From positions 2,691,501 to 2,755,500 of the forward strand of contig NZ_CP113061.1 of assembly GCF_026625745.1 (NCBI RefSeq): a DNA stretch of 64,000 nucleotides. The letters run 5' to 3'. This DNA comes from Asticcacaulis sp. SL142 (lineage in GTDB: Bacteria > Pseudomonadota > Alphaproteobacteria > Caulobacterales > Caulobacteraceae). The notes under the pieces were generated by a model. The model searched no databases. It saw only the letters and a list, made by a program, of their open reading frames with translations, and was not told the DNA's origin. This document shows, piece by piece, positions 677-21,430 of the stretch (position 1 is its first letter; the number at the start of each line of letters is the position of its first letter). The translations under genes and the position numbers were made by a program.

Positions 677-1516
677 ATGACATCCTCATGCCGCCTGTCT
701 TTACTTGGAGCCGAAGTTGACGTTCTCACCCCCGATGAGGTGATGTCGGCCATTGCGCAGTCGGTGACCGCAAAACGCCGGATGGTGATCGCCAATCACA
801 ATCTGCACAGTCTTTATCTATTTCATCGCCGCTCAGACATGCGCGCCTTTTACGCTAAGGCCGACCTGATCGAGATCGATTCTACGCCGATGATCCTGTG
901 GGGGCGGTTGCTTGGCAGGTGCGTATCGCGGGCCCATCGCTGCACCTATCTCGATTTTCGCGAAAGCTTCTGGGCGCGGGCGCAAAGTGAGGGCTGGCGG
1001 GTCTGCCATGTCGGCGGAGCGCCGGAGCATAACCCGTTATCGAAGGCGGCGATTTTGAACCGCTACCCTGATGTGCATCTCGATATGCACACCGGTTATT
1101 TTGATGTGACGGGCGCTGATAATGAGCGGCTTTTGGCCGAGCTGGCGGCCCATAAGCCCGATGTTTTGCTGGTCGGCATGGGGATGCCGCGTCAGGAACT
1201 GTGGATTCTCAATAATCTGGAGCGACTGCCGGAGTGCGCAATCATGCCGATCGGGGCGGCCTTCGATTATGAAGCGGGCGTCATGTATACGCCGCCGCGC
1301 TGGACCGGGCAGATCGGCATCGAATGGCTTGTGCGCTTTTTCCATGAACCGAAGCGTTTGTTCAGTCGCTACTTCCTTGAGTCCTGGGTGCTTATCCCCC
1401 ATGCTATGAGGGATGTTTTTACGCGCTCAGAGGCCGCGCAGGCTCGCCGCATTAGCGGCGGCGGGCGGTCGCCCTTGCCGAAGCGTAAAACGCTTCGGAA
1501 GCGAAAGCCGCGTTAA
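677..1516 (+). CDS. WecG/TagA/CpsF-family glycosyltransferase
   Basis: A 279-residue protein matching the WecG/TagA/CpsF family, which transfers N-acetyl-aminosugars such as ManNAc or its uronate to lipid-linked acceptors at the inner face of the membrane. The signature GMGMPRQE is near residues 167-174, and WTGQIGIEW lies further on. The C-terminal 35 residues are rich in Arg, Lys and Gly, suiting a peripheral membrane protein. It starts 33 bp after the OmpA gene and ends 54 bp before pseB, so it probably serves the surface-glycan pathway encoded next door. The donor and acceptor sugars cannot be read from the sequence. Confidence 0.85.
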   Translation: MTSSCRLSLLGAEVDVLTPDEVMSAIAQSVTAKRRMVIANHNLHSLYLFHRRSDMRAFYAKADLIEIDSTPMILWGRLLGRCVSRAHRCTYLDFRESFWARAQSEGWRVCHVGGAPEHNPLSKAAILNRYPDVHLDMHTGYFDVTGADNERLLAELAAHKPDVLLVGMGMPRQELWILNNLERLPECAIMPIGAAFDYEAGVMYTPPRWTGQIGIEWLVRFFHEPKRLFSRYFLESWVLIPHAMRDVFTRSEAAQARRISGGGRSPLPKRKTLRKRKPR

Positions 1517-1570
1517 CTACGCCTTAAGCGCACCACCGCATCATGCGCACATGTAACTGGAGTTTCGACC

Positions 1571-2623
1571 ATGTCCGCACCGTTATACCGTGATTTTGCC
1601 CCTCAGATGGACCCCGTTCAGGGCAAGGTGGTTCTCATCACAGGCGCCACCGGATCATTCGGGCGTAAGATGGTCATGACGCTGCTGCGCGACTATGACC
1701 CGAAGAAGGTCATCATTTTTTCGCGCGATGAGCTTAAACAATATGAAATGCGCGCCGAATTGGAAGAGATGTTTCCCAAGGAAAAAATATCACGCCTGCG
1801 TTTTTTCTTAGGGGATGTGCGTGATCGTTTGCGACTGGTTACAGCCTTTCGCGGGGTCGATGTTGTCATCCATGCCGCCGCGCTGAAACAGGTGCCGGCG
1901 GCGGAATATAACCCGTCCGAATGTATTGCCACCAACGTCAATGGGGCGGAAAATGTCGTCTCGGCCTGCCTTCAAACCGGTGTGCATCGGGTGGTCGCAC
2001 TTTCGACCGATAAGGCCTGTTCACCAATTAATCTTTATGGTGCTACCAAGCTGGCGTCTGACAAGATTTTCGTGGCCGCCAACAATATGGCGGGCGATAC
2101 CGGCATCCGGTTCTGCGCGGTAAGGTATGGCAATGTCATCGGCTCACGCGGGTCGGTGGTGCCGCTGTTTAAGCGCCTGATCGCCAATGGCTCCAAGACC
2201 CTGCCGATCACCGATCCACGTATGACACGGTTCTGGATCACGCTCGATCAGGGCGTTAATTTTGTGCTGTCGTCGTTGGAACTGATGCAGGGCGGGGAAA
2301 TCTTCGTGCCCAAGATTCCGGCGACCCTGATGACAGACCTTGCGACCGCTATGGCCCCTGAGCTTGAGCAGCCCACAGTCGGCATCCGGCCGGGGGAAAA
2401 GCTGCATGAGGTCATGATATCGGCCGATGATGCGCGCTCGACCTATGAACTGGATGACCGCTATATCATTGAGCCGGAATTTGCCGAATATACCCGCAAA
2501 AGCTTTGCCAAGGTGCGCGGGGCAAAGCATGTGCCGGAAGATTTCTACTATGCCTCGGATGTCAATCCTGAGCGGCTGGACATCGACGGCATCAAGGCGC
2601 TTTTGGCCGCCTACACAGGGTAG
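1571..2623 (+). CDS. pseB: UDP-N-acetylglucosamine 4,6-dehydratase (inverting), PseB/FlmA
   Basis: First enzyme of CMP-pseudaminic acid synthesis: it converts UDP-GlcNAc to the 4-keto-6-deoxy-L-altro sugar nucleotide. The 350 residues are those of a short PseB/FlaA1-type extended SDR. The Rossmann motif TGATGSFG is at residues 24-31, STDKA near 144, and the catalytic YxxxK pair near 156 and 160. DPRMTRFW and RPGEKLHE are typical of this subfamily. A good ribosome-binding site (ctggag) precedes the ATG. pseC begins 5 bp after its stop. The Caulobacter counterpart is called flmA. Confidence 0.93.
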   Translation: MSAPLYRDFAPQMDPVQGKVVLITGATGSFGRKMVMTLLRDYDPKKVIIFSRDELKQYEMRAELEEMFPKEKISRLRFFLGDVRDRLRLVTAFRGVDVVIHAAALKQVPAAEYNPSECIATNVNGAENVVSACLQTGVHRVVALSTDKACSPINLYGATKLASDKIFVAANNMAGDTGIRFCAVRYGNVIGSRGSVVPLFKRLIANGSKTLPITDPRMTRFWITLDQGVNFVLSSLELMQGGEIFVPKIPATLMTDLATAMAPELEQPTVGIRPGEKLHEVMISADDARSTYELDDRYIIEPEFAEYTRKSFAKVRGAKHVPEDFYYASDVNPERLDIDGIKALLAAYTG

Positions 2624-2628
2624 GGGCG

Positions 2629-3834
2629 ATGTTGAGCCAGCCCTTTTTGGTCTATGGCCGCCAGTCGATTGATCAGATTGACATCGATCACGTCATTGAG
2701 GCGTTGCAATCCGATTTCCTGACCACCGGGCCGTGGGTGGAACGCTTTGAGCGCGAACTGGCAGCCTATGTCGGCGCAAAAGAGGCGGTGGTGGTCGCCA
2801 ACGGCACGGCAGCGCTGCATCTGGCCATGTTGGCTTTGGGGGTGGGGTCGTCAGATGTTATCATTGTGCCGTCGATTACCTTTGTCGCCTCGGCCAATTG
2901 TGCGGCCTTTTGCGGGGCGCGGGTGGTGTTTGCCGATGTTGATCCGCTGACCGGCCTGATGACCGATGAGACGTTTGAGGAGGCGCTAAAGATTGTGCAG
3001 CGTGACTATAGCGAACTGCGTTTTAGAGGCGTGGTGCCGGTGCATTATGCCGGTCGTCCGGTGACGCTCGATCAGATCGCAGGTCGGTGTGCTGAGTTGG
3101 ATGCTTTTGTGGTCGAAGATGCCTGCCATGCGCTTGGCACCGTCGATAAAGGCGTCATGACCGGCGCGTGCGAATATTCACAGATGGCGTTGTTTTCTTT
3201 CCATCCGGTCAAGACCCTGACCACCGGCGAAGGCGGGGCGATCATGACTAATGACCCCGAACTGGCGCGTAAACTGCGCAGCCTGCGCAGCCACGGCTTA
3301 GAGCGCGATCCGACGCGATTTACCGGACTTGGCTTTGGTGACGACCGCGATAGCGGCGGTTGGGTCTATGAGATGCAGGCGCTGGGCTATAACTACCGTC
3401 TGCCCGATTTAAACTGCGCGCTGGGGGTGTCGCAACTTAACAAGATGCCGCACTTTGCCGCTCGTCGCCGCCGGTTGGTTGAACTCTATCAGGCGGCACT
3501 CGCTTCGGCGCGCCTGCCGGTAAGCTGGACAGCACCCGCGCCGGAGAGCGATCCGGTGTTTCACCTGATGGCGGTGCAGATTGATTTCCGCAGTCTCGGC
3601 AAAACCCGCACTGAGGTGATGGCGCAGTTAAAAGCACGCGGCGTCGGCACGCAGGTGCATTATATCCCCGTTCATCGCCAACCCTATTGGCAGCAGCACG
3701 CGCTCGGACAACGCGATTTGCCGAGAGCCGATGCCTATTATAGCCAGACCCTGTCCCTGCCGCTCTATCCCGATATGACTGACGCAGATCCGGCGGCGGT
3801 GATTGCCATCCTGAAAGAGGTGTGCGGCCTATGA
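2629..3834 (+). CDS. pseC: UDP-4-keto-6-deoxy-GlcNAc C4 aminotransferase, PseC/FlmB
   Basis: PLP-dependent DegT/DnrJ/EryC1-family aminotransferase of 401 residues, predicted to aminate C4 of the PseB product with glutamate as donor. The cofactor-binding lysine lies in SFHPVKTLTTGEGG (about K195), and VEDACHALG holds the aspartate that contacts the PLP pyridine nitrogen. Its position directly after pseB and before pseI, with an ATGA overlap into pseI, makes the PseC assignment much more likely than another sugar aminotransferase. The Caulobacter equivalent is flmB. Confidence 0.92.
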   Translation: MLSQPFLVYGRQSIDQIDIDHVIEALQSDFLTTGPWVERFERELAAYVGAKEAVVVANGTAALHLAMLALGVGSSDVIIVPSITFVASANCAAFCGARVVFADVDPLTGLMTDETFEEALKIVQRDYSELRFRGVVPVHYAGRPVTLDQIAGRCAELDAFVVEDACHALGTVDKGVMTGACEYSQMALFSFHPVKTLTTGEGGAIMTNDPELARKLRSLRSHGLERDPTRFTGLGFGDDRDSGGWVYEMQALGYNYRLPDLNCALGVSQLNKMPHFAARRRRLVELYQAALASARLPVSWTAPAPESDPVFHLMAVQIDFRSLGKTRTEVMAQLKARGVGTQVHYIPVHRQPYWQQHALGQRDLPRADAYYSQTLSLPLYPDMTDADPAAVIAILKEVCGL

Positions 3835-4880
3835 GTTATGAAATCGAGATCGCCGGACGCAAGATCGGGTCGGCTCATTCGCCCTACATAATCTGCGAAT
3901 TATCGGGCAATCATAACGGCTCGCTGGAACGTGCATTGGCGCTGGTCGATGCGGCGGCGGAGACCGGCTGCGACGCCATCAAGCTTCAGACCTATACCGC
4001 CGACACGATTACCATGAAGTCCGATCGGCTTGAGTTTTTCATCGGCGGCGGGCCGTGGGAAGGCTACGCCCTGTGGGACCTCTATAACGAAGCCCATACC
4101 CCCTGGGACTGGCACGAAGCCCTGTTTGAACGGGCAAAATCGCGCGGTGTGACCATGTTTTCGTCGCCCTTTGATGAAACCGCGGTTGATCTGCTGGAGG
4201 GGCTGGGGGCGCCGGCCTATAAAATCGCCTCGTTTGAGATGATCGACCTGCCGCTGATTGCCTATGCTGCGTCTAAGATGAAGCCGTTGATCCTGTCGAC
4301 CGGCATGGCCAATCTGGCCGAGATCGACGCAGCGGTGGCGACGGTGCGCAAATACGGCAACGGTCAGTTTGTCCTGCTGCATTGCGTCAGCGAATATCCC
4401 GCCGACATCAACGATGCTAATGTGCGTGTGGTGCCTGATCTGGGGGCGAAATTTCAGTGCCCGTCGGGCCTGTCTGATCATACCTTTGGCACGGCGGCCT
4501 CGGTTGCTGCGGTGGCGCTCGGCGGCTGCGTTATTGAAAAGCATTTCACCCTGGCGCGGGCCGATGGCGGGCCGGATTCGAGTTTTTCGCTGGAGCCTGC
4601 CGAATTCACCGCCCTTGTGCGCGACTGCAAGGACGCGCATCGGGCCTTGGGGAGTGTGCATTACGACACCCTGGGGTCTGAGCGCGGCTCAAAGACCTTC
4701 CGGCGCTCGCTCTATGTGGTCGCCGATGTCAAATCCGGTGAATTGCTGACCAAGGACAATGTCCGCTCGATCCGTCCGGGTCTGGGCTTGCCGCCGGTCA
4801 GACTATGGGACGTGCTGGGCAAACCAGCCGCCCGTGATCTGATGCGCGGAGAGCCCTTATCAGACGATATGGTGGGTTAG
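3831..4880 (+). CDS. pseI: Pseudaminic acid synthase, PseI (NeuB family)
   Basis: Condenses 2,4-diacetamido-2,4,6-trideoxy-L-altrose with phosphoenolpyruvate to give pseudaminic acid. The 349 residues hold an N-terminal NeuB-type TIM barrel (CELSGNHNG, AIKLQTYTADT, FSSPFDETAV, LSTGMA, GLSDHT) and a C-terminal SAF/antifreeze-like domain (RRSLYVVADV to PLSDDMVG). I chose the ATG at 3831 because it overlaps the pseC stop as ATGA; an in-frame GTG at 3822 would add three residues. The motif details favour PseI over the sialic or legionaminic acid synthases. Its 3' end meets the end of a minus-strand gene with a 4-bp overlap. Confidence 0.92.
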   Translation: MSYEIEIAGRKIGSAHSPYIICELSGNHNGSLERALALVDAAAETGCDAIKLQTYTADTITMKSDRLEFFIGGGPWEGYALWDLYNEAHTPWDWHEALFERAKSRGVTMFSSPFDETAVDLLEGLGAPAYKIASFEMIDLPLIAYAASKMKPLILSTGMANLAEIDAAVATVRKYGNGQFVLLHCVSEYPADINDANVRVVPDLGAKFQCPSGLSDHTFGTAASVAAVALGGCVIEKHFTLARADGGPDSSFSLEPAEFTALVRDCKDAHRALGSVHYDTLGSERGSKTFRRSLYVVADVKSGELLTKDNVRSIRPGLGLPPVRLWDVLGKPAARDLMRGEPLSDDMVG

Positions 4881-5545
4881 TTTCTTTTGAAAAAATTCAG
4901 AACATCAATTGGTCGAGTTGCAGTAAGAATTTTTTCGAGCTTTCTAATAGTGTCGCTGTGCTCATGTCCGACGACACCCAAACTACGGTGATAACGAAAC
5001 GGAGATTGTTTCACTTCCGCGGCTTCAAGGGCTAATTTTGCGTGATATTTTGATTTTGGGATGTTCTTTAAATCAGCGTGAATTAGGCCGAGAGCGGCGT
5101 TCCATTTGAAATGTGCATCTGGAAAAGGTGATTTTAATTCAATCGAATCCAAGAATGCCAAAACGCTTTCATACTCATGTTTGATGGCGCGAGTGGCTAT
5201 CAAATAAGGATACATGGTCGCGGACGTGCCTTGAAATTTGGGGTTCTCTCTTTCAATCTGTAGAGAGATTTTCATGCAGTTAATGGCGTCGTCATATTTT
5301 TCCACAGCCAGATAGACATCTCGCCTGACATCCCACGCCCGCCCATCATGATATATTGTGGATTTGGTCTCGAAATAAATATCAATGAGTTCCAGAGCTT
5401 TATCAGGGAACTTATCCTTGAGATAAACAGCTTGGATGACCAGATATTGATCACGCTGGCTGCGACTGCGCTTTAATTTTGCGAAAAAGGCAGCCTCGAT
5501 ATCCTCCTCCCAAGTTTCATTTCTGTACCAATCTTCGCTACTCAT
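4877..5545 (-). CDS. TPR-like protein of unknown function in the pseudaminate locus
   Basis: A 222-residue acidic/basic mixed protein with no signal peptide or membrane segment. It looks alpha-helical and repetitive, with alternating helix pairs (YLVIQAVYLKDKFPDKALELI, ... YDDAINCMKISLQIE, ... IHADLKNIPKSKYHAKLAL) of the tetratricopeptide kind. I do not recognise a named family. Base composition is visibly more AT-rich than in its neighbours, suggesting separate acquisition. Its start overlaps the pseF stop as ATGA on the minus strand, so it is probably cotranscribed with, and translationally coupled to, pseF. A scaffolding or partner-binding role in glycosylation is only a guess. Confidence 0.75.
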   Translation of the reverse strand: MSSEDWYRNETWEEDIEAAFFAKLKRSRSQRDQYLVIQAVYLKDKFPDKALELIDIYFETKSTIYHDGRAWDVRRDVYLAVEKYDDAINCMKISLQIERENPKFQGTSATMYPYLIATRAIKHEYESVLAFLDSIELKSPFPDAHFKWNAALGLIHADLKNIPKSKYHAKLALEAAEVKQSPFRYHRSLGVVGHEHSDTIRKLEKILTATRPIDVLNFFKRN

Positions 5546-6234
5546 CGGCGTTTCAACACCTCAAACGCAACCTCGGCTACCTCCCAGTCTTCGGGAGTGT
5601 CGATATCGTGGACCAGATGGCGGGGCAGGATGACCGGCACGGAAACCGGTGAAAAGGCGATATGGCCCTCAAGCCAGGCCTCGGTCTTACCCCAATAGAA
5701 CTGGGCGGCGTCATGATAGGCGGGCTCTAAATCCTGCGAACGCTTAGTTAGGTTCTCCGGCCAGAACATATCGACGCTGCCGTCCGGCGTGCGCTTCAAG
5801 GCGCGCTGGATGGGAAAGGCAAACGATGTGACGGAAAACGCAAAGGATTTGTTGTGCGCCAGCAATGTGTCATGACCCTCAATCAGGCTTTCAACCTGAA
5901 TGAACGGGGCGGTCGCGTAGATGCAACAGGCCAGATCAAACTCGATACCTTGCGCCTTAAACCAATTGATCGCATGGACCACGACGGCCCCCGTGCCGGT
6001 GTGGTCATCAGCCAGTTCGGGCGGTCTCAGGAACGGGATTTCTGCGCCGAAACTTTGCGCGACCTCAGCGATTTCAGCATCGTCGGTCGAGACGATTACC
6101 CGTTCAAACAGGCCGCTGTCGATGGCCGCACGGATCGAATAGCTGATCATCGGCTGACCATGAAACGGCTTGATATTCTTACGCGGGATACGCTTTGAGC
6201 CGCCGCGGGCGGGGATAATGGCAATAGCGCTCAT
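5542..6234 (-). CDS. pseF: Pseudaminic acid cytidylyltransferase, PseF
   Basis: Activates pseudaminic acid with CTP to CMP-pseudaminic acid, the donor for glycosyltransferases. The protein has 230 residues, normal for the family. It opens with the CMP-sialic-acid-synthetase nucleotide-binding motif IIPARGGSKRIPRKN, followed by MISYSI and STDDAEIAEVA. DIDTPEDW near the C-terminus is also typical. The start overlaps the stop of the upstream PhyH-type gene by 4 bp, placing it in the minus-strand unit ACP-PhyH-pseF-TPR. NeuA of sialic acid is the main alternative, but the pathway context supports PseF. Confidence 0.9.
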   Translation of the reverse strand: MSAIAIIPARGGSKRIPRKNIKPFHGQPMISYSIRAAIDSGLFERVIVSTDDAEIAEVAQSFGAEIPFLRPPELADDHTGTGAVVVHAINWFKAQGIEFDLACCIYATAPFIQVESLIEGHDTLLAHNKSFAFSVTSFAFPIQRALKRTPDGSVDMFWPENLTKRSQDLEPAYHDAAQFYWGKTEAWLEGHIAFSPVSVPVILPRHLVHDIDTPEDWEVAEVAFEVLKRR

Positions 6235-7154
6235 CGCAGAAAAATCCGGTTGATATAGGGATCATAGCCGCCGGGATTATCCATAATGGGGGCTTTCGGG
6301 CAGTGCGGTGAGGCATAGAGATTATACTGGATGGCCAGCAGCAGGCGCGGCTTATTGACCGGCAACTGGCCCTTGTGAAAGCCATACACGTCCTCAAGAA
6401 ACCACGATCCGGCGGGGCCGGTAATGGCCGTGAGGCGATCCGCCCCAAACGCCTCCGTAATGGCCGCATCGGTCTGGGCCTTGCCGGTCTCAAGTGCGCG
6501 GTCATGGTGTGAGCCGCGCACAAACATATGGGGGCCCGCCTCGTCGTCAACGTCGGTCAGGTAGTAGAACAGCTTGATGTTTTGCACACAGTCGTAATCG
6601 CGGTGAAAGCGCTGCACCCCCTTGGCGGTATGGCGTTCAGGGTACGACCAGAAAGCCCCGATATTATCGACCACTGGCTTGCAGCCTAACCGCAATTCCA
6701 TCGCCTGCAACACGTCTGGCCGGTTCATCAGATCGAGCATGTGGGGGGCGCGCAGGGTTTCCTCCGGCGTGTAATAACCCATATTGATCTCATCTGCGGG
6801 CGGTGCGTCCCAGCCGAACTTACCTACCTGCGGGCGGAACGGATCATGGCAGGGGGTGGCCTTGAAGTAGTCCACCACCTCATTCAGCACATCGCCCGGT
6901 ATGGCCGGTTGCACCGGGGTCAGACCGTCCTGTTGCAGAGTTTGGCACAGGGTTCGTGCCCTATCGGACGGGGCGAATTCGGGGGTTTTAGGTTTAACCG
7001 CGCCGATGAGGGCCGCCACGCCGCCGCGTTCAGGCAAACCCAGCGTCGGCAGAAGGTCATATGCCATATTGCGGGAGTCAATCGCGGCGCGCTCGGAAAA
7101 CCGTTTCAGGGACGGCACGCGAGTCCTTAGCCGTTCTGAAAAGGTCGGGGTCAT
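6231..7154 (-). CDS. Phytanoyl-CoA dioxygenase (PhyH)-family Fe(II)/2-oxoglutarate oxygenase
   Basis: A 307-residue protein resembling the PhyH family of non-haem iron, 2-oxoglutarate-dependent hydroxylases. The iron ligands appear to be the HxD pair in FHRDYD and the distal histidine in YGFHKGQLP, followed by the arginine in KPRLLLAIQYN that would hold 2-oxoglutarate. It lies 1 bp after the acyl carrier protein gene and overlaps pseF, so it is in one operon with both. This suggests a carrier-bound acyl chain or a sugar as substrate. Family call is good; the substrate is inference. Confidence 0.82.
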   Translation of the reverse strand: MTPTFSERLRTRVPSLKRFSERAAIDSRNMAYDLLPTLGLPERGGVAALIGAVKPKTPEFAPSDRARTLCQTLQQDGLTPVQPAIPGDVLNEVVDYFKATPCHDPFRPQVGKFGWDAPPADEINMGYYTPEETLRAPHMLDLMNRPDVLQAMELRLGCKPVVDNIGAFWSYPERHTAKGVQRFHRDYDCVQNIKLFYYLTDVDDEAGPHMFVRGSHHDRALETGKAQTDAAITEAFGADRLTAITGPAGSWFLEDVYGFHKGQLPVNKPRLLLAIQYNLYASPHCPKAPIMDNPGGYDPYINRIFLR

Positions 7155-7155
7155 T

Positions 7156-7377
7156 TTAAAGCCCTGCGAGGTCTGCCAGGTCGTTGAGGGTTTTGGCCTG
7201 TTTCAGTTTTTCATTATCGACGATCCGGTCGAGGTCTGAATCGACCATGGCCACGAACGAGATAACGGCCAGGCTGTCCCAGTTGCCGAGGGCATCCAGC
7301 GTTTCATCACCTGTAAGGCCGGTGGCTTCGGTTTCCAGAATCTCCGCTACAGCGGCGAAAAAAGCTTGCTTGTCCAT
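7156..7377 (-). CDS. Acyl carrier protein, specialised
   Basis: A 73-residue acidic protein with the acyl/peptidyl carrier fold. The phosphopantetheine attachment serine is S35 in GNWDSLAVI, so it should be modified by a phosphopantetheinyl transferase encoded elsewhere. It is clearly not the housekeeping AcpP, whose site reads GADSLD. It opens the minus-strand unit that runs through the PhyH oxygenase to pseF, and it faces a divergent KAS III-like gene across a 146-bp promoter region. It probably carries the acyl intermediates of this cassette. Confidence 0.88.
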   Translation of the reverse strand: MDKQAFFAAVAEILETEATGLTGDETLDALGNWDSLAVISFVAMVDSDLDRIVDNEKLKQAKTLNDLADLAGL

Positions 7378-7523
7378 GTACGGTACTCCGGTAGTGCGTT
7401 GCGCGAATCATGAGGCTGAACGTTGCGGTCTGGTCACAGGGAATATGGTTTTCGTCAATATTTGCTTAAAACTTGCTAACTAAGGTTAACGCGACATCGT
7501 CCCAAACCCTACGGAGGGCCGGC
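7378..7523. promoter_or_regulatory. Divergent promoter region between the ACP and KAS III-like genes
   Basis: This 146-bp gap must contain promoters for both the minus-strand ACP-PhyH-pseF-TPR unit and the plus-strand KAS III-to-pseG unit. It is more AT-rich than the flanking genes. TTGCT occurs twice with an 11-bp period (7462 and 7473), which could mark a regulator site on one face of the helix. I could not assign -35/-10 boxes with confidence. Confidence 0.4.
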
Positions 7524-8588
7524 ATGACTTCAGCCCGTTTAAGCGGCATTGGTATCAAGGGTGTGCGGGTGTGCGTGCCTAAGGATATCCGCCGTCTTGA
7601 GGACGAAGGCCTTTTTCCCGAAGCGAAAGACCGCGACCGTCTGACCGGCTCGATCGGGGTGATAGAGCGCCGGGTGGCGGCTGAGGGGGTGACGACCTCT
7701 GATCTGTGCGAACGGGCGGCGGTAAACCTGCTGGCCGAACTGGGCTGGGCCAAGGATAGCATCGATGTGCTGATCATGGTCACTCAAAGTCCTGATTTCG
7801 TTATTCCGGCGACCGCCTGCACCCTGCAAACGCGGATGGGCCTTGGCAACTGTCTGGCCTTTGATATCAATCTGGGCTGTTCGGGGTATCCCTACGGTTT
7901 GTGGACGGCAGCCAGCTTGCTAAAGACACTAACGGTTGAAGGCAGGCCTGCGCGCGCGCTGGTTCTGGCCGGGGATATTTCGACCGTAAAACTGCTCAAA
8001 GACGATAAGGCGACCGTGCCGCTGTTTGGCGATGCCGGTTCAGCCACGGCGCTGGAGGTCGATGACGCTGGCGGTATCTGGCACGGTGTGTTCGGCACAG
8101 ATGGTTCCGGTGCTGAGCACATTATGGTCAAGGCGGGCGCTATGCGGCGCTCATTAGTGCCGACCGATGAACCCAAATCGCCCGAAGACCAGGCGGCCCT
8201 TTATAAGGAATCGCGTCTGCATCTGAACGGGGCGGAAGTGTTTAACTTCACCCTGCGGGCCGTGCCGGCGCTGGCCAAAGAGTTGTTTGAGACGGCGGGT
8301 ATTACGGCCGATGATGTCGATTATGTCGTGCTGCATCAGGCCAATGCCTTCATGCTCAACCACCTGCGCAAGAAAATCGGCCTGCCCGAAGAGAAGGTGC
8401 CGATTGCGCTGGGGTCATACGGCAATACGTCCTCGGCCTCGATCCCGCTGGCTATGGCATCGCACCTGTCGAATGAACTGACAAAGCCGCAGCGGATTGT
8501 CATGATGGGCTTTGGGGTGGGGTGGTCGTGGGGGGCGATCAAGCTTGATATGGCCGCGATCCCGGCGCCCCAGATCGATGAATACTGA
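7524..8588 (+). CDS. 3-oxoacyl-ACP synthase III (FabH)-like protein, copy 1
   Basis: A 354-residue thiolase-fold condensing enzyme. The complete KAS III triad is visible: Cys in NLGCSG (about C118), His in VLHQANA (about H271) and Asn in YGNTSSASIP (about N301), so it should be catalytically competent. The ATG at 7524 follows a strong Shine-Dalgarno (ggaggg at 7514-7519); an upstream in-frame TTG at 7473 is unlikely. It begins a tightly spaced plus-strand unit. It may condense a starter acyl-CoA with malonyl-ACP or act as an acyl transferase onto the neighbouring ACP. A second KAS III-like gene lies about 2.7 kb downstream. Confidence 0.87.
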   Translation: MTSARLSGIGIKGVRVCVPKDIRRLEDEGLFPEAKDRDRLTGSIGVIERRVAAEGVTTSDLCERAAVNLLAELGWAKDSIDVLIMVTQSPDFVIPATACTLQTRMGLGNCLAFDINLGCSGYPYGLWTAASLLKTLTVEGRPARALVLAGDISTVKLLKDDKATVPLFGDAGSATALEVDDAGGIWHGVFGTDGSGAEHIMVKAGAMRRSLVPTDEPKSPEDQAALYKESRLHLNGAEVFNFTLRAVPALAKELFETAGITADDVDYVVLHQANAFMLNHLRKKIGLPEEKVPIALGSYGNTSSASIPLAMASHLSNELTKPQRIVMMGFGVGWSWGAIKLDMAAIPAPQIDEY

Positions 8589-8590
8589 AT

Positions 8591-9685
8591 ATGTTTGACG
8601 GGCTCTATAGCGGGTTTACCTCTGACGTTTATCTCAGGCCCGACGTGTTCGAGGCTGAGATGGAACGGGTGTTTGCCCCGTCCTGGCTGTGTCTGGGCTT
8701 TACCGATGATCTGCAAAGCCCGAACGATTTCATTACCCGTCAGATCGGTAAGACCAATATCGTCGTGCAGAATGTCAAAGGCACATTACGGGCCTTTCGC
8801 AATGTCTGCACCCACCGGTTTTCACGCATTCAGTGCGAGGCGAAAGGTAACCGCCCGCTGACCTGCCCCTATCATGGCTGGTCGTTTGATGGTAACGGCA
8901 CCCCGGTCGGCGTGCCCCATAATGCCAAAAGTTTTGACCTGAGTGACGATGACCGGCAGGCTTTGCGGCTGGAGGCATTTGCGCTTGAGACCTGCGGTCG
9001 ATTTGTGTTTGTGCGCATGGCCGCGGACGGGCCGGATCTGCGCGGGTTCTTGGCTGGGTTTTATGACATCCTAGAACATCTGAGCGATACCTGCCCGGAG
9101 CGGTTCGACAGCCACCAGGCGTCGTGGGATTTTAACTGGAAGCTGGGCATGGACAATGCCGCCGAAGGGTATCATGTCCCGCTGGTGCACCCCGAAAGTT
9201 TCGCGGCCATGTTAAAGCCCGATCTGCGCCTGACGGCTGAGGGTGAGCACGGTTATTTTCTGGGCGATTTTCGCGAACAGTCGGTGAAATGGTGGGCCGG
9301 CGTATCCAAGGCCATCGGATTGCAGACCACGCCGCGCTATCCCGAATATGCCTGTTTTCTGGTCTTTCCCAATATGGTTATCAATATGAGCTGGGGCGGG
9401 TTCTATTCCGCCCTGATGTTTGATCCGATCGGGGTGGATGCCACCGCGGTCAATGCCGGGCTGTTTCTGGGCCGCAATAAGGGCGGGGCTGCCCGTGAGA
9501 TGATCGTGGCGCAGCTAAAAGACTTTTCCGATAAGGTGCGGGCCGAGGATCACGGCATCTGTGTCAAGGTGCATCAGGGGCTGACATCGATGGCCACACC
9601 GCGCGCGCCGCTGCTGGGTAAGATGGAAGATGCTTGCGCCCATTTTCATGCTGTCTATGCCAACCGAATGAAGGGGGCCTTATGA
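8591..9685 (+). CDS. Rieske non-haem iron oxygenase, alpha-subunit type
   Basis: A 364-residue protein with an N-terminal Rieske [2Fe-2S] domain (CTH near residue 73 and CPYHGW about 20 residues later) and a C-terminal catalytic domain. The mononuclear iron site is in DNAAEGYHVPLVHPE, with two histidines in the expected spacing. Such enzymes hydroxylate or otherwise oxidise aromatic, aliphatic or amine substrates and need a reductase and ferredoxin, neither of which is encoded nearby. It starts 2 bp after the KAS III-like gene and overlaps the SDR gene as ATGA, so its substrate probably belongs to the same pathway. Confidence 0.88.
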   Translation: MFDGLYSGFTSDVYLRPDVFEAEMERVFAPSWLCLGFTDDLQSPNDFITRQIGKTNIVVQNVKGTLRAFRNVCTHRFSRIQCEAKGNRPLTCPYHGWSFDGNGTPVGVPHNAKSFDLSDDDRQALRLEAFALETCGRFVFVRMAADGPDLRGFLAGFYDILEHLSDTCPERFDSHQASWDFNWKLGMDNAAEGYHVPLVHPESFAAMLKPDLRLTAEGEHGYFLGDFREQSVKWWAGVSKAIGLQTTPRYPEYACFLVFPNMVINMSWGGFYSALMFDPIGVDATAVNAGLFLGRNKGGAAREMIVAQLKDFSDKVRAEDHGICVKVHQGLTSMATPRAPLLGKMEDACAHFHAVYANRMKGAL

Positions 9686-10473
9686 GCGATCTGATGCCGG
9701 TTCAAAATCCCGTGCGTGAACCGTTCAATCCGATGTCACTGGAAGGGCGCACTATTCTGGTGACGGGTGCCTCAAGTGGTATCGGTAAGGGTACGGCCAT
9801 CTATCTGGCCAAGCTGGGCGCGCGGGTCATTGCGTCGGGCCGTAATGCCGAAAGATTGCAGGAAACGCTGAATGAGATGCCGGGTGAGGGCCATGTCGGG
9901 CGGGTGCTCGACCTGGCGCAGCATGAGCTGATCGTGCCGTGGATGAAGGAAACCTGCGCGCTTTATGGCCCCTTAAATGGTCTGGCGCACTGTGCCGGTA
10001 TTCAGTCGATGCGACCGCTGCAAACGGTTAATCTTGACTATATCCGTGAGGTGTTTGACGCCAATCTGACGGCGGCGCTGGTGCTGGCGCAGGCCATGCG
10101 GCTCAAGGGGTGCCATACGCCGCAGGCCTCATTGGTGTTTGTGGCCTCAACCTCGGCCTTGCGCGGCGCATCCGGCAATTCGGTCTATGCGGCCTCAAAA
10201 GGCGGTATGGCGGCCATGACGCGCAGTCTGGGGATTGAACTGGTTCGTGACGGGTTGCGGGTCAACTGCGTCGCCCCGGCGCTGGTGGATACGCCCATCG
10301 CCCATGCCTATCGTAAGCTGACCGAGGATGGCTATCAGCGCCTGACCGCCGCCCATCCGTTGGGGATTGGCTACCCCGAAGATGTCGCCGCGGCTGTGGC
10401 GTTTTTGCTGGCCGACACGTCGCGCTGGATCACCGGCTCGATTATGGCGGTCGATGGGGGCCTGCTGGCATGA
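9682..10473 (+). CDS. SDR-family oxidoreductase (FabG-like)
   Basis: A 263-residue classical short-chain dehydrogenase/reductase. The cofactor motif TGASSGIG is near residues 29-36, the catalytic serine lies in VASTSAL, and the YxxxK pair is in YAASKGG. The C-terminal ITGSIMAVDGG is typical of FabG-like members. The ATG at 9682 overlaps the Rieske stop (ATGA) and is preferred over an upstream start at 9634. In this cassette it could reduce a 3-oxoacyl-ACP made by the KAS III-like enzymes to the 3-hydroxyacyl form; this role is inferred from context. Confidence 0.88.
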   Translation: MSDLMPVQNPVREPFNPMSLEGRTILVTGASSGIGKGTAIYLAKLGARVIASGRNAERLQETLNEMPGEGHVGRVLDLAQHELIVPWMKETCALYGPLNGLAHCAGIQSMRPLQTVNLDYIREVFDANLTAALVLAQAMRLKGCHTPQASLVFVASTSALRGASGNSVYAASKGGMAAMTRSLGIELVRDGLRVNCVAPALVDTPIAHAYRKLTEDGYQRLTAAHPLGIGYPEDVAAAVAFLLADTSRWITGSIMAVDGGLLA

Positions 10474-11309
10474 CCGCCGTGGCTACCCCTAAAGCCCCGT
10501 CTCGGCGCATCAGTTTGTCGCTGAATAACGATCATAGCTGTGCGCCGCTCAGCTATCTGGAGATGGGACGTGTAGACGGGCCGGTGCTGGTCTTCCTGCA
10601 TGGATTGGGGGCGGATTGTCTGGCCTGGCATTACTGTCTGCCCGCGTTTATGGCGCGCTACCGGATCATTGCCCTCGATCTGCCGGGGCATGGCCGATCG
10701 GGTGTTGATGTGGGTGATGGCGATGTTGCCTTTATGACGGGCTGGCTGGACGAAGCCCTGGCCCTGCTTAAGGTGTCATCGGCCCATGTGGTTGGCCATT
10801 CGATGGGGGCCAAGCTGGCCTTGGGGCTGGCCCATCGTCACCCTGAGCGTGTGCAATCCATGACCTTGATTGCCCCCGCAGGTCTTGGCGGGCCTTTCCA
10901 CTATGAGACCATGGACGCCTATCTTGCGGCGCCATCGCTAAAGACCGCTCATGATCTGGCGCGGTTTCTGGTGACTGAGCGCCATGCCCAGATGGTTCCC
11001 GCCCTGGCGCAGGCCCTTTATGAGGCGGTCAGCGATCCCGGACGGCAGGCAGCCTTTGTTAAGCTACTTGAGACGGCCAAGACCTTTGGCGTGGCGCTGT
11101 CGCCGGAATGGCGGGACTGGTCGCGGCTGCGCTGCCCCATACAGTTTATCTGGGGCGATCAGGATCGGCTGACCCCGTTAAACGAAGCGGCCTATCTGCC
11201 GCCGGATGCGGTGGTCCATGTCCTGCCGGACGTGGGTCATCTGCCCCATGTCGAGGCGGCGGCAGGCGTTGTGGCGCGCTTAAAAGCCTTTCTGGAAACG
11301 GCAGTATAG
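10470..11309 (+). CDS. Alpha/beta-hydrolase fold protein
   Basis: A 279-residue alpha/beta hydrolase. The nucleophile elbow is GHSMG (around residue 110), the oxyanion-hole motif LHGLGAD lies near the N-terminus, the acid is likely in WGDQDRLTP and the catalytic histidine in VGHLPH. It overlaps the SDR stop as ATGA and is followed after 10 bp by the second KAS III-like gene. A thioesterase that frees the acyl group from the carrier protein, or an acyltransferase, would fit the context, but the fold alone does not tell which. Confidence 0.85.
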   Translation: MTAVATPKAPSRRISLSLNNDHSCAPLSYLEMGRVDGPVLVFLHGLGADCLAWHYCLPAFMARYRIIALDLPGHGRSGVDVGDGDVAFMTGWLDEALALLKVSSAHVVGHSMGAKLALGLAHRHPERVQSMTLIAPAGLGGPFHYETMDAYLAAPSLKTAHDLARFLVTERHAQMVPALAQALYEAVSDPGRQAAFVKLLETAKTFGVALSPEWRDWSRLRCPIQFIWGDQDRLTPLNEAAYLPPDAVVHVLPDVGHLPHVEAAAGVVARLKAFLETAV

Positions 11310-11319
11310 GGATGCGATC

Positions 11320-12342
11320 ATGGCCACCTTTGTAACCCGCGCCCCGGCCCTCAGAGGCATAGTCACGGCCATGCCGTCGCATCAGGAATCTAACCATGAT
11401 CTGTCGGGGCTATTTGGCGAAGAGATGGTGGGTAAGATCATCGGGGCGACGGGTATTGAAACCCGTCCGGTGTCAGACGGCCTTTTAATCAGCGATATGG
11501 CGGTGGCCGCCGCGCAAAATCTGATGGACGGTCTGGGCTGGGACAAGGACAGCATCGATCTGCTGGTTTTGGTGACCCAGACGCCGGACTATCCGTTACC
11601 GGCGACCTCCTATGTGGTGCATGGCCGACTGGGCCTGCCCATGACGACGGCGACCCTTGATCTGCGGCTGGGCTGTTCGGGGTTTGTCTATGGTTTGAGC
11701 GTCATCTCGTCGATGATGGCGGCGGGCGGCCTCAAGCGGGCGCTACTTATCGGCGGCGATGTCATCAACACCATGATCGCCGATGATGACAGGGCGCTAA
11801 GGTTGCTGTTCGGGGATGCGGTGGCGGCGACGGCTTTGGAAGCGTCAGATGACGATCACCAGATTGGCTTTGATCTGGGGGCCGATGGGTCGGGTGCGCC
11901 ACATCTGATCTCGGAAACCGGCGGGGTGGCCCATCCCGGCGATCCGCGCCTTTATATGGATGGGGCGCGGGTATTGTCGTTTTCCCTGCGTCAGGTAGCC
12001 CCGTCTGTAGCGCGGGCGCTAGCGGCGGTGAATATGGCGGCTGATGACATGGATCATGTTATCCTACATCAGGCCAACGCGATGATGATTCAGTCTTTGG
12101 CCAAAAAAATCGGCCTGCGTGATGAGCAGGTGGTGGAGGTGGTCAGAGACTATGGCAATACCGGCCCGGCCTCGATCCCGCTGGCGATGTGCGAGACGTT
12201 CCATCAGGTGACGTCGCAGGCTCCGGTCAATCTGCTGCTCAGTGGGTTCGGTGTAGGCTGGTCATGGGCGTCCGCCGTCTGGCGCACACCAAAGCCTTGC
12301 TATTGCGATATTCTCCGCCTGCCGCATAAGGATCAGCTTTAA
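11320..12342 (+). CDS. 3-oxoacyl-ACP synthase III (FabH)-like protein, copy 2
   Basis: A 340-residue KAS III-like condensing enzyme related to, but clearly different from, the copy at 7524. The triad is intact: Cys in RLGCSG (about C119), His in ILHQANA (about H250) and Asn in YGNTGPASIP (about N280). Having two such enzymes with one ACP suggests two distinct condensations, or a heteromeric enzyme; neither copy looks decayed. Its stop overlaps the pseG start by one base (TAATG), binding the acyl cassette translationally to the pseudaminate pathway. Confidence 0.87.
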   Translation: MATFVTRAPALRGIVTAMPSHQESNHDLSGLFGEEMVGKIIGATGIETRPVSDGLLISDMAVAAAQNLMDGLGWDKDSIDLLVLVTQTPDYPLPATSYVVHGRLGLPMTTATLDLRLGCSGFVYGLSVISSMMAAGGLKRALLIGGDVINTMIADDDRALRLLFGDAVAATALEASDDDHQIGFDLGADGSGAPHLISETGGVAHPGDPRLYMDGARVLSFSLRQVAPSVARALAAVNMAADDMDHVILHQANAMMIQSLAKKIGLRDEQVVEVVRDYGNTGPASIPLAMCETFHQVTSQAPVNLLLSGFGVGWSWASAVWRTPKPCYCDILRLPHKDQL

Positions 12343-13355
12343 TGGCGCGTTTGTGGATCAGAACCGAAGCGTCCGCCGCTATTGGCCTAGGCCATTTCAT
12401 GCGCTGTTTCGCGATTGCCGAAGCCGCTAGCGCGCACGGGTGGAAGGTGAGCTTCATCCTTAATGAGGCATCAAGCGCTGCCCAAAAACAGATGGCGGCC
12501 ATCGGGGCCAACTGGGTTAAGGTGCAAAGCCGGATTGGCTCTCAGGCGGACGGGGTGGCGCTGCGTACCCTGATTTCCAGCCATCACTGGCTGATCATCG
12601 ACAGCTATAGCGCGACGCCTGACTATATCGCCGCCATGTATGATCATACCAAAGTGCTGGTCATGGATGATTTGGCGCAACTGAGCCATATCCGCGCCCA
12701 CATGGTCGTCAACGCGGCGGCGGCGGCCAAAACCCTGCCTTATGACGACATTGCCCCGCAGGCGGTGGCCTGCCTTGGGCCGCGCTACGCTCCGATCCGT
12801 GCAGAGTTTAGCCGCGAATATCCAAAGTTCGATCAGGAGGGCTTTATTGCCCTCATGTTTGGCGGGTCAGATCCTAAGAACCTTACCGGTCAGGCGCTCA
12901 GTGATCTCTACCATGAGATGTTCCCCATGATCGGCCAGCGCGTCCCGATCCGCCTGATCGCGGGGCCTGTCAATCCGCACATTGAGGCGTTATCGACCCA
13001 GATCGCCGGTATGGAGCAGGTGTCTTTGCATATGGCACCTGACAGTGTGGCTGAAACGCTTAACGGTGCGTCGCTGGTCGTGACGGCGGCGGGCGGCAGC
13101 GTCGGGGAAATTGCCGCTCAAAGCCTGATGGCACTGGTGCTGATTGTGGTTGATAATCAGGTCATGTCGCTGAAATCGTCACCCTATCCGGTCATGGATG
13201 CCCGCGGTGGATTGCCCGATGATTTCGCCCAGTGGGTCGCGACCTTTCTGATGCATCCGGAAATTTGTCAGGAAACGGCCACCCGCGCCAAAGCCCTGAT
13301 TGACGGCCAAGGGCCGCGCCGGATCGTTGAGATCATGACGGAGCTTAGTCTTTAA
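12342..13355 (+). CDS. pseG: UDP-2,4-diacetamido-2,4,6-trideoxy-L-altropyranose hydrolase, PseG/FlmD
   Basis: Removes UDP from the diacetamido-trideoxy-altrose nucleotide to release the free sugar used by PseI. The 337 residues have a GT-B-like fold as in MurG. The N-terminal RTEASAAIGLGHFMRC corresponds to the family's GxGHxxR-type signature, with the catalytic histidine in it. MFGGSDPKN and AAGGSVGEIAA are the expected C-terminal nucleotide-binding motifs. Its start overlaps the preceding KAS III-like gene, and a repeat element begins at its stop codon. Caulobacter flmD is the equivalent. Confidence 0.9.
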   Translation: MARLWIRTEASAAIGLGHFMRCFAIAEAASAHGWKVSFILNEASSAAQKQMAAIGANWVKVQSRIGSQADGVALRTLISSHHWLIIDSYSATPDYIAAMYDHTKVLVMDDLAQLSHIRAHMVVNAAAAAKTLPYDDIAPQAVACLGPRYAPIRAEFSREYPKFDQEGFIALMFGGSDPKNLTGQALSDLYHEMFPMIGQRVPIRLIAGPVNPHIEALSTQIAGMEQVSLHMAPDSVAETLNGASLVVTAAGGSVGEIAAQSLMALVLIVVDNQVMSLKSSPYPVMDARGGLPDDFAQWVATFLMHPEICQETATRAKALIDGQGPRRIVEIMTELSL

Positions 13356-13430: not shown

Positions 13431-14009
13431 ATGTTTGACCATATGGCCTTTCGTGAGCCGACCGCCGATGACGCCCAGATGATCCTCGACTGGCGTACAG
13501 CGGATCATGTCGCCCCCTATATGCTGACCACGGTCGACTATGACCTCGATAAGCAGCGGGCCTGGATCGAGCGCAGCAACGCCCGCGCCGACTACCATCA
13601 CCGGCTGATCCTGATCCATGGCCGGCCGGTCGGTTATACGTCGATCACGATTGTCGATATGGACAACCGCATCGGCGAAATCGGAATCTATATGGGTGAG
13701 CGCGACGTGCCGGGCGACCTGACCATGTATAATTTTGTGCCGACCCTGAACCATGCCTTTTACGCGCTGCGGCTCACCAAGCTGGTCAACCATATTGCCG
13801 ACTGGAATCCGCGCGTCATCAAGGTCCAGAAATATAACGGCTACCGTCAGATTGGCGTCGAGCCGGGTAAGGTTGTTAAGGACGGCATTGCCCGCGACCT
13901 TTATGTGTTTGAACAAACCGCACAAGAATGGGCGCAGTTTCGGCGCAAATATCCGGATAATCGTGACTGGGACGGGGTTGCGCGGCCTGATCCAGCGGGA
14001 ACCGATTGA
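13431..14009 (+). CDS. pseH: GNAT-family N-acyltransferase, PseH/FlmH-like
   Basis: A 192-residue GNAT protein. The start FREPTADDAQMILDWRT and the later YMLTTVDYDLDKQRAWIE resemble the PseH group, which transfers acetyl from acetyl-CoA to the C4 amino group of the PseC product. VNHIADWNPRVIKVQKYNGYRQIG is the typical acetyl-CoA-binding and C-terminal region. It completes the six-enzyme pathway in this window (PseB, C, H, G, I, F). Given the ACP cassette beside it, the donor might instead be a longer or modified acyl group; this cannot be decided from the sequence. Confidence 0.78.
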   Translation: MFDHMAFREPTADDAQMILDWRTADHVAPYMLTTVDYDLDKQRAWIERSNARADYHHRLILIHGRPVGYTSITIVDMDNRIGEIGIYMGERDVPGDLTMYNFVPTLNHAFYALRLTKLVNHIADWNPRVIKVQKYNGYRQIGVEPGKVVKDGIARDLYVFEQTAQEWAQFRRKYPDNRDWDGVARPDPAGTD

Positions 14010-19980: not shown

Positions 19981-21430
19981 ATGACGGGCGAAACGAACCG
20001 CTTTGTTGTCGAAGTCCGGCGCACGCCGCAGAAGCATGATGCGAAAACCCGCATTAATAACTTCTCGGAAATTTACGCCGATTTCAAACCGGCCCAGGCC
20101 ACGACCCAGTCTTCGCGCTGCGCCCAGTGCGGCGTGCCGTTCTGTCAGTCGGGTTGTCCTTTGCAGAACAACATTCCTGACTGGCTGCGCATGACCGCCG
20201 AAGGCCGCTACGAAGAAGCCTATCTGCTGTCGTCGGCGACCTCGACCCTGCCGGAAATCTGCGGCCGTATCTGCCCGCAGGATCGTCTGTGCGAAGGCTC
20301 GTGCGTGTTGGAGCAATCGGGCTGGGAAAACGTCACCATTGGTTCGGTTGAGCGTTTTCTGGGCGATATGGCGTTTGAAAACGGCTGGATTGAGCCGATT
20401 GTCCCGGTGCAGGAGCGTGGCCAGAACATCGGTATCATCGGGGCGGGCCCTGCCGGGATTGCGGCGGCGGATCGTCTGCGCACGCTCGGATACAAAGTCA
20501 CCATCTATGATCGCTATGACCGCGCCGGTGGCCTGCTGACCTACGGCATCCCATCGTTCAAGCTTGAGAAAGAAGTCGTGCTGCGCCGTACCGACCGTCT
20601 GGCGCAATCGGGCGTCGAATATGTCATGAACTGCGACATCGGTAACGACGGTGTCGTTTGAGGAACTGCGCGAAAAGCACGACGCGATCCTGATTGCTAC
20701 TGGGGTTTACAAGACCCGCCGCCTGAGCGTGCCCGGTTGTGGCTCGCAGGGTGTGGTGATTGCACTCGACTACCTGACCGCGTCAAACCGCGTAGGTTTT
20801 GGCGATAGTGTACCGGACTATGTGTCGGGCCGCCTGAACGCCGAAGGCAAGAACGTCATCGTCATCGGTGGCGGCGATACGGCTATGGACTGCGTGCGCA
20901 CCGCCACCCGTCAGGGGGCAAAGTCCGTCACCTGCGTTTACCGTCGTGACCGCGCCAACATGCCGGGGTCTGACCGCGAAGTTTACAATGCCGAAGAAGA
21001 AGGCGTGAAGTTCGAATGGCTGTCGGCGCCAATGGCGGTGCTGGGCGATGCCGAGACCGTCACAGGCCTTAAGGTGCAGCGTATGCGCCTGACCACGCCG
21101 GACGCGCAAGGCCGTCAGGGCATCGAAGACATTGCCGGTGCCGAAAACGATCTGCCTGCCGATCTGATCATTGAGGCTCTGGGCTTTGAGCCGGAAAACA
21201 TTCCGGTCATGTTCAATGAGCCGGGCCTTGAAGTCACCAAATGGGGCACGATCAAGACTCTGGCCGGTGAATTCCAGACTCTTGTGCCCGGCGTATTCGC
21301 GGCCGGTGATATTGTGCGCGGTGCATCTTTGGTGGTGTGGGCTGTCCGTGAAGGTCAGGACGCCGCCGCCGATATCCACCACTACCTGCAAACCCAATTG
21401 GCGCTTTCTCTGTCGGAGGCGGCCCAATGA
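19981..21430 (+). pseudogene. gltD: Glutamate synthase small subunit gltD, interrupted by a +1 frameshift
   Basis: Two adjacent reading frames together give a full GltD of about 483 residues. The first (19981-20661) has the N-terminal Fe-S cysteines (CAQCGVPFCQSGCP, CGRICPQ) and the FAD motif GAGPAG. The second (from 20651) has the NADPH motif GGGDTAMDC and the C-terminal FAD region (VFAAGDIVRG). One extra G at 20650/20651 shifts the frame; without it the protein reads IGNDVSFEELREKH, as expected for the family. No other damage is visible and gltB downstream is intact, so a sequencing error or a very recent mutation is likely. The intact product transfers electrons from NADPH to GltB. Confidence 0.88.

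Follow-up and report, generated by a model that had tools for sequence, protein, structure and literature searches.

A 64,000-nucleotide stretch of Asticcacaulis sp. SL142 (assembly GCF_026625745.1, contig NZ_CP113061.1, positions 2,691,501 to 2,755,500), here called the window, holds a pseudaminic acid (Pse) locus with a set of acyl-building genes, the cassette, between pseF and pseG. PseB, PseC, PseI, PseF and PseG of the Pse pathway each score above their curated NCBIfam cut-off, and PseI of the window is the sole match in its own genome at E<=1e-20. The genes that an earlier reading of the letters alone (the sequence-only reading) had placed between pseF and pseG, namely a PhyH-type oxygenase, an acyl carrier protein (ACP), two beta-ketoacyl-ACP synthase III (KAS III)-like enzymes, a Rieske oxygenase, a short-chain dehydrogenase/reductase (SDR) and an alpha/beta hydrolase (ABH), are all present as placed (Table 1). 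Comparison with related genomes supports the link between this cassette and Pse well, and the cassette probably builds an oxidised short acyl group and attaches it where the sugar normally carries one of its acetyl groups.

The genes pseB, pseC and pseI run rightwards, ACP, PhyH and PseF leftwards, and KAS1, Rieske, SDR, ABH, KAS2 and PseG, followed by a PseH-like GNAT and MsrB, rightwards again. The tight joins described earlier are found at seven junctions (PseF/PhyH -4 bp, PhyH/ACP +1, KAS1/Rieske +2, Rieske/SDR -4, SDR/ABH -4, ABH/KAS2 +10 and KAS2/PseG -1) but not between ACP and KAS1, which are divergent with a gap of 146 bp, so that the cassette forms two operons (ACP-PhyH-PseF and KAS1 to PseG). 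The GNAT starts 75 bp past PseG. A recent foreign island found no support as an account of the cassette, whose genes have a GC content of 0.545-0.618, near the 0.575 of the whole window. Following PseF, and overlapping pseF by 4 bp, is a TPR-like open reading frame (ORF; 4877-5545, minus strand) of GC 0.423 against 0.575 for the window, which has no Pfam match, is not called in four close relatives (L022-L025) and is possibly a foreign insert.

Table 1. Features of the pseudaminic acid locus and its acyl cassette (positions in the window)
Feature	Position	Strand	Evidence
CtrA-type site TTAA-N7-TTAA, before pseB	1513..1527	+	exact consensus match
PseB	1571..2623	+	TIGR03589 508.4 bits, cut-off 407.75
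PseC	2629..3834	+	TIGR03588 466.9 bits, cut-off 423.5
PseI	3834..4880	+	TIGR03586 490.9 bits, cut-off 340.25
PseF	5542..6234	-	TIGR03584 342.4 bits, cut-off 205.7
PhyH-type Fe(II)/2-oxoglutarate oxygenase	6231..7154	-	PF05721 24.2 bits, cut-off 22
Stand-alone ACP, DSL motif in translation	7156..7377	-	PF00550 30.1 bits, cut-off 20.8
CtrA-type site, 1 mismatch, divergent ACP/KAS1 promoter	7455..7469	+	consensus match
KAS1, KAS III-like synthase, C/H/N triad	7524..8588	+	Pfam ACP_syn_III plus its C-terminal domain
Rieske oxygenase alpha subunit	8591..9685	+	Pfam Rieske 63.4 bits, Ring_hydroxyl_A 90.2
SDR, FabG-like reductase, S/Y/K motif in translation	9682..10473	+	adh_short_C2 161 bits
ABH, GHSMG motif in translation	10470..11309	+	Abhydrolase_1 101 bits
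KAS2, second KAS III-like synthase, C/H/N triad	11320..12342	+	Pfam ACP_syn_III plus its C-terminal domain
PseG	12342..13355	+	TIGR03590 170.1 bits, cut-off 153.55
PseH-like GNAT, proposed acyl transferase	13431..14009	+	TIGR03585 48.5 bits, cut-off 93.1

The cassette has a fixed position within the pse locus. A Rieske search at E<=1e-40 over 249 genomes of the family, 25 of them Asticcacaulis, gave matches in 18, all within Asticcacaulis, and the core ACP-KAS1-Rieske-SDR is likewise present in 18 of the 25. The cassette adjoins pseF in all 18 and then pseG in all 17 whose contig extends there. Because this core is kept in 18 of the 25 genomes, at the same position and with Rieske proteins 42-97% identical, the arrangement is more than chance. 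PseF is above its cut-off exactly once in each of the 25 genomes, which leaves seven without the cassette; the PseI match is single in 24 of the 25 (that of G080 only 36% identical), while G099 has three. A second place in the latter genome (G099:C219:68574-73499) gives weak PseI-like and PseF-like matches and perhaps serves another nonulosonic acid. Canonical PseH, above its cut-off, occurs in seven of the 25 genomes. Of these, G089, G094 and G149 lack the cassette and G042, G099, G104 and G129 have it, so 14 of the 18 cassette genomes are without canonical PseH. In light of this adjacency, of the pathway scores and of the missing canonical PseH, the earlier proposal of an acyl-building cassette tied to Pse gains comparative support, and the search it suggested, for the same gene set beside pse genes in relatives, has found the core at pseF throughout these 18 genomes.

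Around the core the gene content varies. ACP, KAS1, Rieske and SDR are present in all 18 cassette genomes, PhyH in 14, ABH in 15 and KAS2 in 14, the last two counts being affected by a contig (L031) that ends after SDR. A second ACP together with a second SDR occurs in nine, and an AMP-binding ligase in seven (Pfam assignments were made on one of each, from L034). Since these accessory genes differ from genome to genome, the acyl group probably differs among species. One genome has two tandem Rieske genes (L038:9851-12038, minus strand), 45% and 42% identical to that of the window. Mapped onto a PseF tree with good support for 5 of its 22 inner branches, presence of the cassette can be explained by 2 changes, as against 6.3 when labels are shuffled. 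Protein-distance correlations among cassette and pse genes run from r 0.51 (ACP-PseG) to 1.00 in the pairs computed, with 0.95 for KAS1-SDR and 0.99 for KAS2-GNAT.

Genomes without the cassette tend to carry something else at the same place: in six of the seven the pseF-pseG site is occupied by canonical PseH or by a gene of WbqC type. A gene of WbqC size adjoins pseF in four of these loci, identified by Pfam in L099 (205 bits), by eye in L100, and by size and place in L101 and L104. Canonical PseH lies beside pseF in L102 and L103. The WbqC sets also include an amine-oxidase-like gene (L099, L101, L104) and a methyltransferase-like gene (L100, L101, L104), Pfam having been run on one of each and the others assigned by size or eye.

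The enzymes of the cassette keep the residues presumed to be catalytic. KAS1 and KAS2 have a C/H/N triad (C119, H271 and N301 in KAS1) that is invariant over 21 aligned rows. Both score below the FabH cut-off (202 and 194.5 bits against 292.1 for TIGR00747). Housekeeping fatty-acid synthesis was ruled out as the role of the cassette, because the genome has a separate FabH elsewhere that is above this cut-off (408 bits). Residues H184-x-D186, H260 and R270 of PhyH, which we take to be catalytic, are invariant in 13 aligned rows, and a sequence search of the PDB with this protein at E 0.01 gave no match. In 13 aligned rows of the Rieske protein C73, H75, C92 and H95, presumably the cluster ligands, are invariant, as are E192 and the presumed 2-His-1-carboxylate set H195, H200 and D320. 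Its second-best match of solved structure is carnitine monooxygenase, over residues 10-337, the substrate of which is a 4-carbon acid; biphenyl dioxygenase is by score a slightly better match but aligns with the N-terminal part, and a match to salicylate 5-hydroxylase also covers most of the protein. The ABH matches many hydrolases and indicates no specific function.

With a KAS III bearing the C/H/N triad apart from the housekeeping FabH, a dedicated ACP and a FabG-like SDR, the cassette has these components of a viosamine-type route. The viosamine island of Pseudomonas syringae pv. tabaci 6605 (vioS, vioR, acp, vioB), with homologues in the island of P. aeruginosa PAK, yields a sugar with 3-hydroxybutyryl on its 4-amino group (PMC3927599). 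Deletion of vioR (the reductase), vioA, vioB or vioT removes the modified sugar, and the roles of vioS (KAS III) and acp were predicted from homology (PMC3927599). The likeness is that of KAS III, 3-oxoacyl-ACP reductase and ACP genes within an amino-sugar island for flagellin. The differences are that the sugar there is dTDP-viosamine rather than Pse, that neither Rieske nor PhyH is among the seven genes tabulated for that island (PMC3927599), and that the Asticcacaulis locus has the GNAT and PseC in place of a VioB-type transferase and VioA, a statement about gene types and not about the VioB and VioA sequences themselves.

The GNAT is the candidate for the transfer step. Not only the protein of the window but those of all 18 cassette genomes fall below the PseH cut-off (45.6-63.4 bits). 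Its predicted structure has the PseH fold, in that the best PDB match of the AlphaFold model (pLDDT 90.8) is H. pylori PseH with acetyl-coenzyme A (CoA) (4ri1; TM 0.75/0.81); the structure of FdhC in complex with CoA and a 3-hydroxybutanoylamino sugar ranks 49 among the PDB matches of the model, and a sequence search of the PDB gave weak matches only. The motif [RQ]xxGx[GA], which we take to be the CoA-pyrophosphate motif, is absent from all 36 cassette-type rows (17/17 from genus cassettes, 11/11 from a scan with the Rieske alignment and 8/8 from a class sample, in which L231 repeats the genome of L128 so that one genome is counted twice) and present in all 10 canonical-type rows. The CoA loop is one residue shorter in the cassette-type rows (two in L235), and likewise in the canonical-type row L236. 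Gln133 is invariant in 22 aligned rows and is His in two canonical rows; class-sample rows L232, L233 and L235 lack it. As judged from the alignments, these loop changes fit a switch of acyl donor. The earlier suggestion of a PseH-like GNAT as the likely transfer enzyme is strengthened by the uniformly low PseH scores, by the lost loop motif and by the lack of any other PseH above cut-off in most cassette genomes.

Outside the genus, related gene sets recur. The Rieske-alignment scan of a genome collection kept the best 80 loci, 10 of them from Asticcacaulis, and 19 of the other 70 were mapped. Two Herbaspirillum loci combine PseB, PseC, PseG and PseI with Rieske, KAS1, SDRs, ACP, GNAT, a second ACP and an AMP ligase (among the matches listed), and one of the two carries a cytidylyltransferase by Pfam. 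The GNAT profile matches 15 of 385 genomes of the class at E<=1e-10, and 11 of the 14 others were examined as loci. Seven of these lie below 1e-30, with pse-like genes in the stretch examined in four (L229, L230, L232, L233) and not in three (L228, L231, L234); in four other Alphaproteobacteria, cassette-related sets have some pse genes as neighbours. Six further Caulobacteraceae (L106-L111) carry distantly related clusters of the same enzyme types, KAS, ACP, SDR and Rieske; their KAS and SDR are 39-48% identical to those of the window, but the gene order differs and the Rieske protein is only 26-30% identical. Five of the six have a PseC-like aminotransferase of 25-30% identity, and L111, the one tested, has by Pfam a hexapeptide transferase where the window has the GNAT.

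Putative CtrA-type sites precede both parts of the locus. The CtrA consensus is TTAA-N7-TTAA (PMC9437464), and an exact site lies before pseB in each of the 10 mapped loci that include this gene, of which 9 carry the cassette and 1 does not. All 18 cassette genomes have a site with at most one mismatch ahead of KAS1 (3 exact). Controls at the same threshold gave 5/24 for PseG, 0/25 for PseF and 33/437 for other upstream regions (0 exact), or 22/188 (0 exact) for other upstream regions with a gap of at least 60 bp. Fisher p values of 3.5e-15 and 4.9e-17 for the comparison with this last set are too small because the genomes are related. In Caulobacter crescentus CtrA drives flmA, flmG and neuB (PMC7591256). 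Given the sites before KAS1 and pseB and this precedent, the cassette is probably expressed together with the flagellar programme, through sites that CtrA would bind.

Several described systems approach the Asticcacaulis arrangement without coinciding with it. The Flm pathway of C. crescentus resembles it as a Pse route with CtrA-dependent promoters (flmA, flmG, neuB), but its N-acetyl step is assigned to FlmH, FlmC is without homology to PseF, and no acyl cassette is described in the available text (PMC7591256). Flm enzymes have also been used to produce Pse in E. coli K12 (PMC7591256). Group II flagellar glycosylation islands of Aeromonas carry pse genes with ACP, 3-oxoacyl-ACP reductase and AMP-dependent synthetase; they differ in having luxC and luxE and extra genes that split pseBC from pseFGHI, and Rieske and KAS III are not named in the portion available (PMC7874193). 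Enterobacteriaceae islands with fatty-acid genes have been reported (PMC4875605). The sfmABCDE operon of Shewanella oneidensis is, like the cassette, concerned with flagellin modification and encodes a PseI-like protein as well as a putative 3-oxoacyl-ACP reductase, yet no KAS III, ACP or Rieske gene is described for it in the accessible part of the paper (PMC3765264). The K-antigen of Sinorhizobium fredii HH103 contains a Pse derivative with acetamido at C5 and 3-hydroxybutyramido at C7, to go by a reference title in PMC4270759; it is capsular and not on flagellin. Campylobacter fabH and acpP, which the sequence-only reading had placed in the flagellin glycosylation locus, were not confirmed, neither term being found in the available text of PMC3068675. 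An acyl cassette is not mentioned in the accessible parts of the reviews PMC3958885 and PMC13317340. Literature searches joining Pse and Rieske gave no match, and none was found, among the matches listed, on Rieske enzymes in flagellin glycosylation islands or on Asticcacaulis glycans. The suggestion of an undescribed system is thus to be narrowed: an ACP, KAS III and ketoreductase route to an N-acyl amino sugar is already known from viosamine (PMC3927599), and ACP, reductase and AMP ligase occur beside pse genes in Aeromonas (PMC7874193), while the combination with Pse and the Rieske and PhyH oxygenases appears new.

The reading that we favour, at a probability of roughly 0.6, is that a short hydroxylated acyl group is built on an ACP and placed by the GNAT on the 4-amino group, the result being Pse5Ac7-acyl. 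KAS1, joined in many genomes by KAS2, would condense an acyl-CoA, probably acetyl-CoA, with malonyl-ACP, and the SDR would reduce the 3-oxo group to give 3-hydroxybutyryl-ACP or a close analogue. The Rieske enzyme, together with PhyH where present, could add further hydroxyl groups to the chain and so give, for instance, a group of 3,4-dihydroxybutyryl type; this group we infer, since no paper joining a dihydroxybut- group with Pse was found among the matches listed. The GNAT would move the acyl group from the ACP onto the 4-amino group of the PseC product, after which PseG, PseI and PseF would yield CMP-Pse5Ac7-acyl, most likely destined for flagellin under CtrA control.

The place and the timing of the modification could differ from this. 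The acyl group might sit elsewhere on Pse, as an O-acyl group or at N5 after acetyl removal, with the GNAT as an acetyl-CoA-dependent N7 acetyltransferase of unusual loop. The retention of canonical PseH in four cassette genomes would suit such an arrangement, as would the ABH if it were an O-acyltransferase (its OlsI match is weak, 44 bits against a cut-off of 385), and C. jejuni flagellin bears di-O-methylglyceroyl, acetamidino and O-acetyl forms besides Pse5Ac7Ac, whose oxonium ion lies at m/z 317 (PMC3068675). The 14 cassette genomes with no other PseH above cut-off, the CoA motif missing from every cassette-type row and the company that related GNATs keep with cassette genes in other genera make it unlikely. 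Alternatively, the substrate of Rieske and PhyH could be the sugar, or the acyl group once it has been transferred, and not the ACP-bound chain. PhyH distances track those of PseF (r 0.92) and PseG (0.97), though those of ABH also track PseF (0.95), and a PhyH-family gene lies at pseF-pseG in L103, a genome without the KAS/ACP cassette. The Rieske gene, on the other side, goes with the acyl genes, its 18 genomes being the same as those with ACP and KAS1, and the match to carnitine monooxygenase over residues 10-337, even with biphenyl dioxygenase slightly ahead over the N-terminal part, also argues against late hydroxylation, which we regard as quite unlikely.

Several observations weigh against the favoured route through ACP and GNAT. 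The missing CoA motif is no proof that an ACP is the donor, and the labels of the GNAT rows as cassette or canonical were assigned by best query match. The four genomes with both the cassette and a canonical PseH elsewhere (followed by msrB in three, the contig ending in the fourth) speak against a simple replacement of PseH; the GNAT there may act otherwise, or the cell may make two sugars. In L105 nothing is called between pseF and pseG, and its genome, G149, has PseH elsewhere. ACP distances correlate poorly with those of PseG and PseF (0.51 and 0.58), the locus shows no electron-transfer partner for the Rieske enzyme, and one-mismatch CtrA-type sites are mildly enriched window-wide (14 against 8.2 expected, a level reached by 5 of 100 shuffles). 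The remaining points come from outside the genus. PseF above cut-off is absent from 11 of the 12 genomes searched there, Azospirillum included. Seven Azospirillum loci (L122, L124, L126, L128, L135, L136, L139) have GNAT and Rieske, with KAS1 called in six, SDR in five and PhyH in three (among the matches listed), and no ACP match was found in the stretches examined. In Azospirillum the GNAT also has further Rieske-type ORFs as neighbours, among them a short ORF with a Rieske domain (Pfam on L128).

Occurrence of the cassette away from pse genes had been named beforehand as grounds for rejecting the link. The outcome is divided: in Azospirillum a related module occurs without PseF above cut-off, which means that the module is portable and not restricted to Pse, while in Asticcacaulis it is always beside pseF. 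The Azospirillum loci would accord with a cassette that makes a separate small molecule or lipid and shares only neighbourhood and promoter type with the pse genes. Such a product we consider highly improbable for Asticcacaulis, in view of its fixed position within the pse locus and the overlap of its genes with pseF and pseG, the pse-linked relatives in Herbaspirillum and other Alphaproteobacteria, and the CtrA-type sites in both promoters.

In a matter apart from the cassette, ORFs 19981-20661 and 20651-21430 (plus strand) overlap and, judged by eye, look like a single glutamate synthase small subunit gene broken in two, as a frameshift might do.

A broader proposal, tentative and to our minds somewhat short of an even chance, is a new mode of nonulosonic acid N-acylation, in which the GNAT has abandoned CoA and is supplied with its acyl group by a dedicated ACP, on which a line resembling fatty-acid synthesis builds the oxidised chain with Rieske and 2-oxoglutarate oxygenases. 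The module, which occurs in Alpha- and Betaproteobacteria, would be exchanged whole at the step of PseH, as acyl cassette, WbqC set or plain PseH, and would thereby tune the sugar. The sugars on flagella play a part in filament assembly, in the binding of phages and in recognition by the immune system. If the proposal is true, the path by which primary metabolism supplies a tailored nonulosonic acid would be known at the level of genes, there would be a means of making N7 groups other than acetyl, and a motif-less GNAT together with KAS1 would be a genomic marker from which unusual pseudaminic acids could be predicted. The occurrence of three alternative gene sets for a single step in this one genus amounts to a natural experiment.

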